64,000 bases of DNA from Candidatus Poribacteria bacterium (GTDB lineage: Bacteria; Poribacteria; WGA-4E; UBA9662): assembly GCA_002709695.1 (NCBI GenBank), contig PAQF01000057.1, forward strand, positions 62,001 through 126,000. Reading direction: 5' to 3'. This document shows, piece after piece, positions 45,613 through 50,306 of the stretch (within the stretch, counting starts at the first letter, position 1; each line of letters opens with the position of its first letter). A program made the position numbers and the translations under genes. The notes under the pieces were generated by a model. The model was not told the origin of the DNA and ran no database searches. It saw only the letters and a program-made list of their open reading frames with translations.

Positions 45613-45658
45613 TGTCTCCTCCGATGTTTAAAATATATTCAGTACTCAATTATAATGA

Positions 45659-45741
45659 TGGGCGTGAAGGGACTCGAACCCCCACGGGGAAACCCCAACA
45701 GATCCTAAATCTGCCTTGTCTACCAATTCCAACACACGCCC
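45659..45741 (-). tRNA. tRNA-Leu (UAG)
   Basis: An 83-nt class II tRNA with an acceptor stem GGGCGTG/CACGCCC, anticodon loop TTTAGGA (anticodon TAG) on a GCAGA/TCTGT stem, a long variable arm (TGGGG...CCCCG) and T-arm TTCGAGT. The CCA end is not encoded. It is the last tRNA before tig. Confidence 0.95.
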
Positions 45742-45795
45742 AAGCAAGCTTACCTCAACAACCCGAATCTTAATCTCAAGGTAAGCTTAAATAAC

Positions 45796-45868
45796 ACGTC
45801 CGGAGGGACTCGAACCCCCAACCTACAGATCCGAAGTCTGTTGCTCTATCCAGTTGAGCCACGGACGC
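45796..45868 (-). tRNA. tRNA-Arg (UCG)
   Basis: A 73-nt cloverleaf. Acceptor stem GCGTCCG pairs with CGGACGT; anticodon stem ACAGA/TCTGT around CTTCGGA gives anticodon TCG. T-arm GGGGG-TTCGAGT-CCCTC. CCA is not encoded. Confidence 0.95.
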
Positions 45869-45879
45869 TCATTAAAAAG

Positions 45880-45952
45880 GGTGGATGATGGGATTTGAAC
45901 CCACGACCACCTGATCCACAGTCAGGCGCTCTACCCCTGAGCTACATCCACC
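45880..45952 (-). tRNA. tRNA-His (GUG)
   Basis: A 73-nt tRNA counting the histidine-specific extra G at -1 (45952), which faces C73 (45880). Acceptor stem GTGGATG/CATCCAC; anticodon stem CCTGA/TCAGG with loop CTGTGGA gives anticodon GTG. Confidence 0.95.
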
Positions 45953-45965
45953 AAGATAAAAATGG

Positions 45966-46038
45966 CACGCCCGGCAGGATTCAAACCTGCGACCTACTGA
46001 TTAGAAGTCAGTTGCTCTATTCACTGAGCTACGGGCGC
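45966..46038 (-). tRNA. tRNA-Arg (UCU)
   Basis: A 73-nt cloverleaf. Acceptor stem GCGCCCG/CGGGCGT; anticodon stem ACTGA/TCAGT with loop CTTCTAA gives anticodon TCT. Discriminator G; CCA not encoded. Confidence 0.95.
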
Positions 46039-46048
46039 AGACCCAAAA

Positions 46049-46123
46049 TCGGGGTGAGAGGATTTGAACCTCCGACCCTCTGCTCCCAAAGCAGATGCGC
46101 TAACCGGACTGCGCTACACCCCG
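46049..46123 (-). tRNA. tRNA-Pro (UGG)
   Basis: A 75-nt tRNA, the first of the cluster after the promoter. Acceptor stem CGGGGTG/CACCCCG; anticodon stem TCTGC/GCAGA with loop TTTGGGA gives anticodon TGG. Discriminator A; CCA not encoded. Confidence 0.95.
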
Positions 46124-46139
46124 TCCGATTTGACGCCAA

Positions 46140-46168
46140 AATATAACACATTTAGGAATTAGATTCAA
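46140..46168 (-). promoter_or_regulatory. Promoter of the tRNA cluster
   Basis: On the minus strand TTGAAT (46163-46168), a 17-bp spacer and TATATT (46140-46145) lie about 10 nt before the likely start of transcription and 17 nt before tRNA-Pro. No terminator was seen between the tRNAs and tig, so read-through into the protease block is possible. Confidence 0.6.
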
Positions 46169-46266: not shown

Positions 46267-46296
46267 TTGACACTTGTGTGGATCCTGTGCTAACAT
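46267..46296 (+). promoter_or_regulatory. Promoter of the NuoI-like gene
   Basis: A perfect TTGACA (46267-46272), an 18-bp spacer and TAACAT (46291-46296). Transcription would begin near 46303, which rules out the GTG at 46274 as a start and supports the ATG at 46346. Confidence 0.55.
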
Positions 46297-46345
46297 GACA
46301 ATCACTGACAATTGGAACAGAATTTTAAGACACAAAAAACATATT

Positions 46346-46903
46346 ATGAAAAACTTGTATGAAGAAATGTCATTCTGGGATAGACTCTATATTCCAGCAC
46401 TCATTAAGGGCTTATTTACCACTCTAAAGCATATTCCGCGGGCTAAACGGAATACTTCTTATCAGTATCCGGAGGATCAAAGAAGCGTTGATGAACGGAA
46501 TGAGCGTTATAGAGGTATACATAAGTTAACTGTTGATGATCAAGGAAATGAGAAGTGTGTTGCTTGTTTTCTTTGCTCAACGGCGTGTCCTGCTAATTGT
46601 ATTGCTATTGAGGCTGAACCCGCCCCAGAAGGCTGGCAAACGTTGGAAGGTTACCAGCGGGAGAAACGTCCCAAGTCGTTTGAAATTAATATGCTCCGAT
46701 GCATTTTCTGTGGTTATTGTGTTGAAGCGTGTCCGGAAGATGCCATTCAGATGACAGGCCTTACCTTGCCTCAGTATTTCCGTGAAACCCAGCAAGATGA
46801 GGAAATTCTCGGGAGGAAGCGAAGTGATTTCATTTTTAATAAGGAAAAACTGATTGGCAACAATTCGATATCGCAGCCAGGCCTAAATATTTACTCAGAA
46901 TAG
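46346..46903 (+). CDS. NuoI-like ferredoxin (two 4Fe-4S clusters)
   Basis: A 185-residue iron-sulfur protein. Two cluster motifs CVACFLCSTACP and CIFCGYCVEACP match NuoI, the quinone-reductase-module ferredoxin of complex I, as do the N-terminal QYPEDQRSVDERNERYRGIHKL and the C-terminal region. The ATG at 46346 is used because the open frame further upstream overlaps the promoter. Complex I genes normally come in a nuoA-N cluster; here NuoI stands alone with its own promoter and terminator. It may serve a split complex I or another membrane redox enzyme. The general ferredoxin call is secure; the NuoI role is inferred. Confidence 0.85.
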   Translation: MKNLYEEMSFWDRLYIPALIKGLFTTLKHIPRAKRNTSYQYPEDQRSVDERNERYRGIHKLTVDDQGNEKCVACFLCSTACPANCIAIEAEPAPEGWQTLEGYQREKRPKSFEINMLRCIFCGYCVEACPEDAIQMTGLTLPQYFRETQQDEEILGRKRSDFIFNKEKLIGNNSISQPGLNIYSE

Positions 46904-46945
46904 AGAAGTTCTGAATAGTCCGAAAATGAAGATCTTACGGGTAGT

Positions 46946-46972
46946 TAATCCTCTACGACGTAGGATTTTTTT
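46946..46972 (+). terminator. Intrinsic terminator after the NuoI-like gene
   Basis: AATCCT and AGGATT form a 6-bp stem around a loop of 9 nt, followed by a run of seven thymines including those of the stem end. It lies about 45 nt past the stop codon. Confidence 0.65.
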
Positions 46973-47017
46973 ATTGAATACATGTAGTTAAAAGTGATAT
47001 TAGAGTAGGCTGGAAAT

Positions 47018-47917
47018 ATGAAAGTCAGCATCATTGGACAAAAAAATACCGTATTGCTAATTGCTCAGCATATATGTCGATTGAAAGAGGTTAAGGAATT
47101 AGTATTGGTTGACGATGTGCATCGCATTTCAAGTTTAGCCCTTGCTGAATTGAAGAGAGTTGCATGCATTGGTCGATCTGATGTGCATCTAATAACTAGT
47201 CGAAATCCATCTGTTGTGACTGGTTCTGAAGTTTTAGTGTATTGTCCTTTTGACTTTAGTCAACTGTCAGAATCCCCTCAAGCTGGGTATTTAAGATCTT
47301 TCGAATTCGAAAATAAAGATCAATTTGGAAGTGTTTTTCAACATGCTCCAGAAGCTAAAATTGTGGTTGCTGCTTATCCGTCAGCTAATATTGTTCAGTC
47401 TGTTCATCAAAATAACAATATGAATTTAGGACAAGTAATTGGGGTTTCAGGACACTTGGTGAATACAGATCTAAAAATAGGGATTTCAGAAGCTGTTGAA
47501 GTCTCAGTAGAAGATGTTGTGTCAATGATTATTGGGAACGATGATGAATACTATATGCTATCCCAGTATTGTTGTGCAGGAGGGATCCCAATTGACCAAC
47601 TGTTAAGCCAAAGCCAAGTTGTGAAATTGGATTCGGCTGTGAGAAATCAGCCCAAAAAACTCATCTTTCCCGATTTTGTGCATACAATTTCGATCTTAAC
47701 TGCACAAGTTGTAAACACGATTCTCCTTGACAAAAAACGGATTATTGTAGCCGCGACAGTAGTTGAGGCGGATGATATGGAAGTGTGCCTGAATTTGCCT
47801 GTGAAGGTTGGACGCAATGGTGCAGAAAAGCTTACTTCGCTGCCTCTCACAAACAAACAGTTTGAACAATTCGTGGAGTTAATCAAAAAAACGGCCACTC
47901 AACGAAGCAATTTATGA
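47018..47917 (+). CDS. Degenerate lactate/malate dehydrogenase homologue
   Basis: A 299-residue protein with the overall LDH/MDH layout: MKVSIIG then LVLVDD at the Rossmann start, a central GVSGHLVNTDL segment where the enzymes have 'GsGtvLDSaR', a segment ending IIGNDDE where they have ViGEHG, and a C-terminus (LPVKVGRNGAEKLTSLPLTNKQ) very like malate dehydrogenase. The key residues are gone. The glycine-rich GxGxxG is GQKNTV, the catalytic His of GEHG is Asp, and the substrate-binding Arg of LDSaR is not conserved. It is therefore unlikely to be a dehydrogenase and may be a pseudoenzyme. Its stop overlaps the start of the XdhC-like gene (ATGA), implying a joint role. Confidence is high for the fold and lower for inactivity. 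Confidence 0.65.
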   Translation: MKVSIIGQKNTVLLIAQHICRLKEVKELVLVDDVHRISSLALAELKRVACIGRSDVHLITSRNPSVVTGSEVLVYCPFDFSQLSESPQAGYLRSFEFENKDQFGSVFQHAPEAKIVVAAYPSANIVQSVHQNNNMNLGQVIGVSGHLVNTDLKIGISEAVEVSVEDVVSMIIGNDDEYYMLSQYCCAGGIPIDQLLSQSQVVKLDSAVRNQPKKLIFPDFVHTISILTAQVVNTILLDKKRIIVAATVVEADDMEVCLNLPVKVGRNGAEKLTSLPLTNKQFEQFVELIKKTATQRSNL

Positions 47918-49017
47918 AAGAAATTTACGATAAAATCGTTGATTTAATCGAAGCTGATAAAATTGGTGCTTATTGTACTGTTGTAGACACTAAAGGATCA
48001 ACTCCCCAAAAACCTGGATCGAAACTCTTGATCTTACCCGATTTGCAGAATATTGGGACGCTCGGTGGTGGTTGTGTTGAAGCAGAAGCGCGTCAGCAAG
48101 CAATACAGCTTCTGCAAGGTGGAAGTCCGCGTTTGCTTGAGTTCCAACTCAATAGTGATTATGGTTGGGATGATGGTCTGATTTGTGGTGGTAGCATGAG
48201 GATCTTTATTGATATACCACAGTCAGCATTAGAATTAGAAATCTTTGCATCTCTTCGAGAACTTTCCGATCAGAAAACCCCACTCTTGTTTGCTACCATA
48301 ATAGAGAGCGAGACGAAACATGAAATTGGTGCTAAATTACTGGTTTCGCCATGTGGTCAGAAATTTGGGTCTCTTGGAGATTGGAGTTTGGAAACCCAAG
48401 TCGAAGAGCAGTTAGAAAGGCTGCTTGGAAATAATACACCTGCAATCATCAGGGCTGATAATGATACTGTAAGTGTTTTTGTTGAGCCTATTCAACCTCG
48501 CCATACTCTTTTGATTGCTGGGGCAGGCCACATTGGTCAAGCATTATGTCACCTAAGTAGCTGGCTTGGTTTTAATGTGGTTGTTGTTGATGACCGCGTT
48601 GATTTTGCTTCTCAGGATCGTTTGCCTGATGCTGACCAGATTATCGTTGGAGATATTTTTGAAGAGTTACGAAATTACCCAATTGATCCTTGCACCTACG
48701 TTGTAATTGTAACTCGTGGTCACAATCACGATGAGGAAGCTTTGCACGCGACGATTAATTCAGATGCTCGCTACATTGGATTAATTGGCAGTCGACGCAA
48801 GGTGAAATTAATCTACGAGGATCTGATGGAACTCGGAATTTCAACTGAGAGGTTAGATCGAGTATACGCGCCAATTGGGTTGGATATCAACTCGAAAACT
48901 GTTCCTGAGATAGCTGTCTCAATCGCAAGCCAATTGATTCAGGTACGTAACAACCCAAAGGTCGGTTCTCGTTTTGACTCATCTCCCTCTAAGATGCCAA
49001 CAGTTAAGTTGGACTAG
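47914..49017 (+). CDS. XdhC/CoxI-family protein
   Basis: A 367-residue protein of the XdhC/CoxI family, which handles molybdenum-cofactor sulfuration and insertion for xanthine dehydrogenase or CO dehydrogenase. The N-terminal XdhC part shows CTVVDTKGSTPQKPGSKLLI, GTLGGGCVEAEA and LICGGSM. The C-terminal Rossmann part shows LIAGAGHIGQAL and VTRGHNHDEEAL, then YIGLIGSRRKV. No molybdenum hydroxylase genes are nearby, and the coupled upstream gene is a malate-dehydrogenase-like protein. The target enzyme is therefore unknown. Confidence 0.9.
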   Translation: MKEIYDKIVDLIEADKIGAYCTVVDTKGSTPQKPGSKLLILPDLQNIGTLGGGCVEAEARQQAIQLLQGGSPRLLEFQLNSDYGWDDGLICGGSMRIFIDIPQSALELEIFASLRELSDQKTPLLFATIIESETKHEIGAKLLVSPCGQKFGSLGDWSLETQVEEQLERLLGNNTPAIIRADNDTVSVFVEPIQPRHTLLIAGAGHIGQALCHLSSWLGFNVVVVDDRVDFASQDRLPDADQIIVGDIFEELRNYPIDPCTYVVIVTRGHNHDEEALHATINSDARYIGLIGSRRKVKLIYEDLMELGISTERLDRVYAPIGLDINSKTVPEIAVSIASQLIQVRNNPKVGSRFDSSPSKMPTVKLD

Positions 49018-49023
49018 ACCGAA

Positions 49024-49812
49024 TCAATAGCTTTCCCCTTCTTTTGGCACTGGATTTGGATGGACACCGCGCACGATTATACCTTGTCCAGTGCTTCCAC
49101 TTGGTTCAGTCGTTCGGCAATCCAGTGGAGATCGAAACTCAAATAATAACATACGCCGCCAGTGTTCGGAGATATTTGGTGAGGATCCATGAATTGTATA
49201 GTAACTAAAGATAAGCAGATCGCCTGCTCTCATTGGTATTGGTGTGGCACGTTCTATTGGGTATTCATTCACTGGCAAATGGTGTGAGCCGTCATGAACA
49301 TGATCTACGTAACCTTCTTTATGACTGCCAGGAATAATGTGTAGGCATCCATTATCAGTTCCTGAATCATCCAAATAAAGCGTTGCTGCAACCATAGTAT
49401 CCAGTTTGTGTGGGAAGTAGTCATAATCTTGATGAAGGGGAAACGCTGCTCCTATTTGGGGAGGTTTAGCGTGCATCAAAGTATGATGTAGTTGTAGATT
49501 CTCAGATCCTACGACTGCTGCTACAGGGTCAGTGATATTCGGATCAAACATCAGCTGAGCCAATGCAGCTGAGTGGTCTTGAATTCGATGAATTGAGAGA
49601 ACACTCCTTGCTTGCTTATCCCCATCTACGTTGATATTCTCACGCCACTTCCCTCCCCAATGTGCTTCTAACCTTCTACCCGCTTTATGGGATCTTTTGA
49701 TCATTAAATCAACTTCATCTTGAATTTTCTGAAGTCGTTTTCCTGCAAGCACCTGATCAATTTTTATGTAGCCATTTTTGTCGAAAAGTGATTTAATCTC
49801 TTTGGTGGTCAT
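49024..49812 (-). CDS. Phytanoyl-CoA dioxygenase family protein
   Basis: A 262-residue Fe(II)/2-oxoglutarate-dependent oxygenase of the PhyH family. The metal site is visible: HQD with His127 and Asp129, and His208 in TIHGSSP. RSPLDCR near residue 232 may include the 2-oxoglutarate-binding arginine. The substrate is unknown; such enzymes are strongly amplified in marine sponge symbionts and Poribacteria, where most remain unassigned. It converges with the XdhC-like gene (6 nt between the stops) and has its own promoter. Confidence 0.9.
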   Translation of the reverse strand: MTTKEIKSLFDKNGYIKIDQVLAGKRLQKIQDEVDLMIKRSHKAGRRLEAHWGGKWRENINVDGDKQARSVLSIHRIQDHSAALAQLMFDPNITDPVAAVVGSENLQLHHTLMHAKPPQIGAAFPLHQDYDYFPHKLDTMVAATLYLDDSGTDNGCLHIIPGSHKEGYVDHVHDGSHHLPVNEYPIERATPIPMRAGDLLIFSYYTIHGSSPNISEHWRRMLLFEFRSPLDCRTTEPSGSTGQGIIVRGVHPNPVPKEGESY

Positions 49813-49934: not shown

Positions 49935-50306
49935 ATGTCAAATACTAATACAGAGAAAAAGGTTTCGGCTTGCTCGGTCACAATTGAGGATAGAACCTAT
50001 ACGGTTTCGGAAGTCTCACAGATTATTATTGATATCTTGAGTTATACTAGTGGCCAGTCCGAGTTTAATAACCTTAAATACTCAGCAGCTGATGTTTATT
50101 GGGTGTTGAACGATTTGCTACGTTACATAAACAATAGAATGGAGGGAGAATTTAGATTGCAAAACCTCAAAAAAGGGACTTGGCAGGTTCGATATGAAAA
50201 TCAGAAGAAAGCAGAACGCTTATCAGCCCAACAGCAGGGAAAAAAGAAACGGGAAACAGCGAATTATATTGAAAAGCTAACAGGAAAACGACCTCCGTGG
50301 GCCTAG
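49935..50306 (+). CDS. Small hypothetical protein
   Basis: A 123-residue protein that I do not recognise. It has a strong AGGGGGT site seven bases before the ATG, so it is likely translated. The N-terminal half contains CSVTIEDRTYTVSEVSQIIIDIL and LKYSAADVYWVLNDLLRYINN, which looks like a helical bundle of 60-70 residues. The C-terminal half is basic and helical (KKAERLSAQQQGKKKRETANYIEKLTG). No signal peptide or metal motif is visible. It stands alone between a divergent PhyH gene and a convergent NAD synthetase. Confidence 0.6.
   Translation: MSNTNTEKKVSACSVTIEDRTYTVSEVSQIIIDILSYTSGQSEFNNLKYSAADVYWVLNDLLRYINNRMEGEFRLQNLKKGTWQVRYENQKKAERLSAQQQGKKKRETANYIEKLTGKRPPWA

Follow-up and report, generated by a model that had tools for sequence, protein, structure and literature searches.

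The window (the whole stretch of 64,000 nucleotides analysed here, lying on contig C57 of a genome of 5.2 Mb in 87 contigs that its relatives place in Candidatus Poribacteria) encodes a protein of the malate dehydrogenase (MDH) family, hereafter MDHL, which by its sequence is catalytically degenerate and which is under purifying selection in the five genome pairs compared. The closest genetic linkage of MDHL is to P950, a protein of about 950 amino acids, and the second closest is to XdhC. The explanation that we favour, and to which we give about an even chance, is that MDHL is a pseudo-dehydrogenase specific to the order, that it serves together with P950 as a binding, scaffold or ligand-sensing subunit, and that it was kept without P950 in the lineage of the window. 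The locus comprises the following features:

46274-46903, plus strand: NuoI-like 2x[4Fe-4S] protein, from profile matches and its place as a conserved cluster neighbour; likely subunit I of complex I
46904-47017, no strand: gap of 114 bp between the NuoI-like gene and MDHL, where the order's other families have the P950 gene
47018-47917, plus strand: MDHL, degenerate malate-dehydrogenase-family protein of 299 amino acids, from the ORF, NCBIfam and solved-structure matches, and alignments
47914-47917, plus strand: ATGA stop/start overlap of 4 nt between MDHL and XdhC, from the sequence
47914-49017, plus strand: XdhC of 367 amino acids with intact N-terminal XdhC_CoxI and C-terminal Rossmann domains, from Pfam and motifs
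49024-49812, minus strand: PhyH-family dioxygenase, convergent between XdhC and O123, from the ORF and Pfam
49935-50306, plus strand: O123, small protein with no named relative, conserved 3' of XdhC in relatives

Whole-length homology places MDHL in the malate/lactate dehydrogenase family. Searches against Pfam gave no match at E<=1, and the NCBIfam MDH models matched the protein over its whole length with an E value of 7e-27 and 94 bits, where the cut-off is 283. Solved MDHs were matched by the single sequence with an E value of 8e-20, and a profile built from 20 MDHLs matched 7aob, an MDH, with an E value of 7e-47. The AlphaFold model of MDHL is weak (mean pLDDT 50, pTM 0.56) and serves as support for the fold only; when it was used as the query in Foldseek, all 50 matches listed were MDH or LDH structures. 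MDHL thus resembles the LDH-like MDHs (NCBIfam PRK06223 and TIGR01763; solved structures 7aob and 1guy) in length and in whole-length homology, but differs from them in that the catalytic His and Asp and the substrate Arg are missing, the NAD loop is broken, one residue is deleted at the GGHGD motif, and D175 and C185 have become invariant.

Active-site residues were counted after the 68 MDHLs had been aligned by MAFFT to 14 intact MDHs of this phylum, with residue roles assigned from general knowledge of MDH and LDH. Compared with the intact MDHs, the MDHL of the window has lost the second and third glycines of GxGxxG, the catalytic His, the catalytic Asp, the substrate Arg and the R87-like loop Arg. 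The catalytic His of GGHGD is present in 0/68 MDHLs, its site being occupied by S, N or D with the adjoining residue deleted, and neither the catalytic Asp nor the R87-like loop Arg was found in any of them (0/68 each); an R81-like Arg is present in nine of the 68. The substrate Arg of DSAR was observed in only 1/68 proteins, most likely that of genome G002, whose alignment is gapped beside the site, and not in that of the window. As for the cofactor site, the first glycine of GxGxxG is kept in 67/68 MDHLs, the second in 15/68 and the third in none (0/68), and the beta-2 acidic residue (D or E) occurs in 13/68. Judged by these alignments, MDHL lacks the His-Asp pair, the substrate Args, and the NAD loop with the beta-2 acid that are expected of a malate or lactate dehydrogenase, which supports catalytic degeneracy and suggests that enzymatic activity has been lost. 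The preliminary description, made from the window alone, had already portrayed an MDH-like protein of MDH length without the GxGxxG loop, the catalytic His or the substrate Arg; the alignment to the 14 intact MDHs agrees on all three losses, and the 299 residues match the MDH models from end to end.

That MDHL nevertheless remains active, as a divergent malate or lactate dehydrogenase, is barely credible. Its family membership by sequence would fit such an enzyme, but His, Asp, Arg, loop Arg and NAD loop are lost in all or nearly all of the 68 proteins, an HMMER profile alignment puts the lost residues at the same places as MAFFT, and the same genome holds a separate intact MDH. An intact MDHL active site in another register was also considered and ruled out, as none appeared in the MAFFT or the HMMER profile alignment.

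The MDHLs share a set of residues of their own. D175 and C185 are present in 68/68, Q183 in 67/68 and R186 in 66/68, and none of the four was found at these places in the intact MDHs (0/14). R186 is replaced by C in the MDHLs of the window and of G005; the sister of the window's genome, G001, has kept it. D175 adjoins the site where the catalytic His was lost, and D175 and C185 both lie near that site in sequence. These residues could serve a new catalysis, which counts against the explanation that we favour, and MDHL would then be a neofunctionalised enzyme performing new chemistry in the old cleft via the invariant Asp175, Tyr184 and Cys185. The strict retention of D175 and C185 and the place of D175 beside the lost His agree with such an enzyme; the residues of the cofactor site, however, vary within MDHL (loss of the third glycine, beta-2 acid in a minority of proteins), and its dN/dS is about 3-fold that of XdhC. 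We regard this alternative as quite unlikely.

Within the order, MDHL was detected in 68 of 72 genomes; none of the 12 genomes searched from the rest of the phylum had it, and the five clear MDH-type matches fetched from outside the order were all intact, ordinary MDHs. The order genomes in which MDHL was not found were G023, G051, G054 and G062 (completeness 90, 86, 73 and 81%, respectively); the counts leave out a further, partial MDHL on contig C155 of G056. One single-sequence scan of genome contigs, the only search to reach beyond the phylum, returned one relative, itself from the phylum (Poribacteria RHO2_bin_7), and MDHL may yet occur elsewhere. In most of the genomes covered by one MDHL search, a separate intact MDH was the second match; that of the window's genome lies at C30:27850, beside a gene that we named by eye as isocitrate dehydrogenase-like. 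A tree built from the 14 intact MDHs and 19 of the 68 MDHLs split the two groups at a branch with 100/100 support, the positions of the long branches (G002, G000/G001, G005) inside MDHL being unsure.

Over five genome pairs, the dN/dS of MDHL was 0.14-0.22, compared to 0.05-0.07 for XdhC in the same five pairs and 0.04 for the intact MDH in the window pair. MDHL is thus constrained but fast-evolving, and not decaying. A pseudogene or frameshift artefact was ruled out by the loss of His and Asp in 68/68 proteins together with a dN/dS of about 0.2.

The genes in relatives run guaB (named by eye), nuoI, P950, MDHL, xdhC and O123, often followed by PhyH. Of 28 MDHL neighbourhoods that were fetched, 25 contained nuoI, 25 xdhC and 23 O123. 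A comparison of 11 loci from four families showed that the core cluster is kept and that the flanking genes mostly differ; in this comparison automatic clustering missed O123 in G005, where it is present, and genus g10 had no locus. In the window, an inverted PhyH gene splits O123 from XdhC. P950 was found in 66 of the 84 genomes of the phylum, all of them within the order (66/72). It shares the strand of MDHL in 65/65 genomes with both, and lies directly upstream, within 600 bp, in 63/65. The genes in two relatives are given as examples; the corresponding place in the window, 46904-47017, lacks P950:

L040, 10446-13283, minus strand: P950
L043, 6558-9440, plus strand: P950

In the window's family, P950 is missing from each of the three genomes (0/3) and MDHL is retained, with its reading frame kept in the window's genus. 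Because MDHL stays there without it, P950 cannot be the sole reason for MDHL to exist. Searches with P950 against Pfam, NCBIfam, PHROGs, PADLOC and solved structures gave no convincing match (best PDB match, E 0.27), and its predicted structure, mostly helical, was of such low confidence (mean pLDDT 37) that it was set aside. In genomes of family f3, a further gene (L046:13725-14273, minus strand) lies between nuoI and P950; its product carries a DPPW motif, which to us recalls MT-A70 adenine methyltransferases, and had no match in NCBIfam.

The order of the genes in the cluster may reflect co-regulation and not contact between the products, which also weighs against the explanation that we favour. 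Taken further, the cluster would be no more than a conserved gene order, and MDHL would have a binding role unrelated to its neighbours. The plain housekeeping genes guaB and nuoI do share the cluster, and MDHL persists without P950 and, in five genomes, away from XdhC; yet over four families it is the core and mostly not the flanks that is conserved, and the link between P950 and MDHL is nearly unbroken. We consider this reading very unlikely.

The XdhC of the window scored above the cut-offs of both Pfam domains (PF02625, XdhC_CoxI, 103.2 bits; PF13478, XdhC_C, 143.5 bits) and has six of the six motifs searched. The Cys of its ICGG motif (residues 90-93), which is also found in 25/25 XdhCs of relatives, may be the equivalent of C82 in R. 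capsulatus XdhC. The nearest NCBIfam model, NF045664 (XdhC_rel_AOR), gave 303.7 bits, below its cut-off of 350. The protein is therefore like the XdhC family (PF02625 and PF13478; NF045664) in both domains and in the ICGG Cys, and differs in scoring below that cut-off and in the location of its gene, which lies apart from Mo enzymes and adjoins MDHL. No second XdhC was found in the window's genome, the gene at 47914-49017 being the only one. The same genome encodes two Mo large subunits of the xanthine dehydrogenase (XDH) type (PF02738, MoCoBD_1), both on other contigs, one of them in a set of three genes that also encodes FAD and 2Fe-2S subunits, the other alone. As the sole XdhC of a genome with two XDH-type enzymes elsewhere, it probably acts in trans as an ordinary Mo-cofactor chaperone serving both. 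L056:8517-10769 (minus strand) encodes a lone Mo large subunit of the XDH type, with no FAD or 2Fe-2S gene among the adjoining listed ORFs.

XdhC was found in 67 of the 68 genomes with MDHL and in none of the four order genomes without it; in G067, where MDHL is close to the end of a contig, XdhC gave no match, and the XdhC of G068, in two pieces, was counted as present. In 62 of the 67 genomes with both, the two genes share a strand and at most 1 kb separates them; in the other five they lie apart. Mo hydroxylases were detected in 39/39 genomes tested, and exactly one match to the window's XdhC in 38 of these. Outside the order, XdhC was present in 7/12 genomes and MDHL in none of the 12, so XdhC needs no MDHL in general.

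In the preliminary description, XdhC was an orphan that overlapped the MDH-like gene by 4 nt, with no molybdenum hydroxylase nearby, and the two genes formed a possible new accessory module. The ATGA overlap is present at 47914-47917 and suggests translational coupling of MDHL and XdhC, and no Mo hydroxylase large subunit lies within the window, the two PF02738 matches of the genome being on other contigs. The proposed check for hydroxylases in the same genome turned up precisely these two XDH-type large subunits, and the sole XdhC of a genome that encodes them is not an orphan. As regards the module, the adjacency that had been proposed as a check was borne out in the order by the 62 of 67 genomes; the five genomes where the genes are apart, and the seven outside the order with XdhC and without MDHL, weaken the pair as a working unit, and the closest linkage of MDHL is to P950, a gene missing from the window's lineage.

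A related alternative, which we hold to be unlikely, is that MDHL serves XdhC as a dedicated partner in the maturation of the Mo cofactor, either as a scaffold or as a docking point for the sulfurating enzyme. Same-strand adjacency, the overlap in the window, the co-occurrence with Mo hydroxylases, and the shared presence and absence of both genes all speak for such a partner, though the joint absence in four genomes may reflect assembly gaps (completeness 73-90%). Their separation in five genomes, the XdhCs outside the order that have no MDHL, and the full set of motifs in the window's XdhC speak against it. According to the published model, Mo-MPT is bound and protected by XdhC, which hands it on to the XDH apoenzyme; as far as the accessible part of that source goes, the model includes MoeA/MogA, MobA, NifS4 and XdhB, and MDH is not among the XdhC partners (PMC2997495).

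Returning to the pseudo-dehydrogenase that we favour, MDHL probably works by binding and not by catalysis, because its active site is lost and it is yet kept order-wide beside P950 and the sole XdhC. MDHL would be an old MDH paralogue that still has the MDH fold but no longer binds NAD or catalyses a reaction, and that nearly every member of the order retains for a binding role. It would most likely dock, as a structural or ligand-sensing subunit, on the P950 encoded directly upstream, and both would belong to an assembly whose genes (guaB, nuoI, P950, MDHL, xdhC and O123) stay together. In the window's family P950 would have been lost, with MDHL surviving and, in the window's genus, still adjoining XdhC. 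The binding role and any physical contact with P950 or XdhC are what we infer from these patterns. A more specific version, in our view distinctly doubtful, would make P950 and the pseudo-MDH a complex peculiar to the order and linking purine with redox metabolism, given guaB, nuoI and XdhC in the cluster; the dead MDH fold would be a ligand sensor or assembly hub by way of its invariant Asp/Cys site, and after the loss of P950 in the window's family the pseudo-MDH would have been reassigned to XdhC in its genus.

MDH is a textbook enzyme, and both the MDH fold family and the concept of pseudoenzymes are already known. To our knowledge, there are few inactive paralogues of it that an entire bacterial order retains for a non-catalytic task. 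Neither a link between XdhC and an MDH-like protein nor an inactive MDH in Poribacteria appeared among the papers listed by our searches of the open-licence literature. MDH-family matches in Poribacteria include proteins that are not MDHs, and automated annotation may label MDHL as malate dehydrogenase. With a nearly strict genetic partner, itself of unknown family, MDHL lends itself to a test of its role by co-expressing the two proteins. A precedent for an MDH with a role in a complex comes from plants, where, in the part of the source available, the plastid NAD-MDH of Arabidopsis has a moonlighting function in the FtsH12-FtsHi complex (PMC8042743). This is an analogy only; according to the same partial source the plastid MDH has, in addition, a major function in metabolism, whereas the active site of MDHL is lost.

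Upstream of MDHL, the NuoI-like ORF has a better start near 46346. The gene, at 46274-46903 on the plus strand, encodes the only close NuoI of the genome and stands alone. Further upstream of the locus, a cluster of five tRNAs (Leu, Arg, His, Arg, Pro) occupies 45657-46123 on the minus strand; the ORF that overlaps this cluster, at 45895-46146, is probably spurious.
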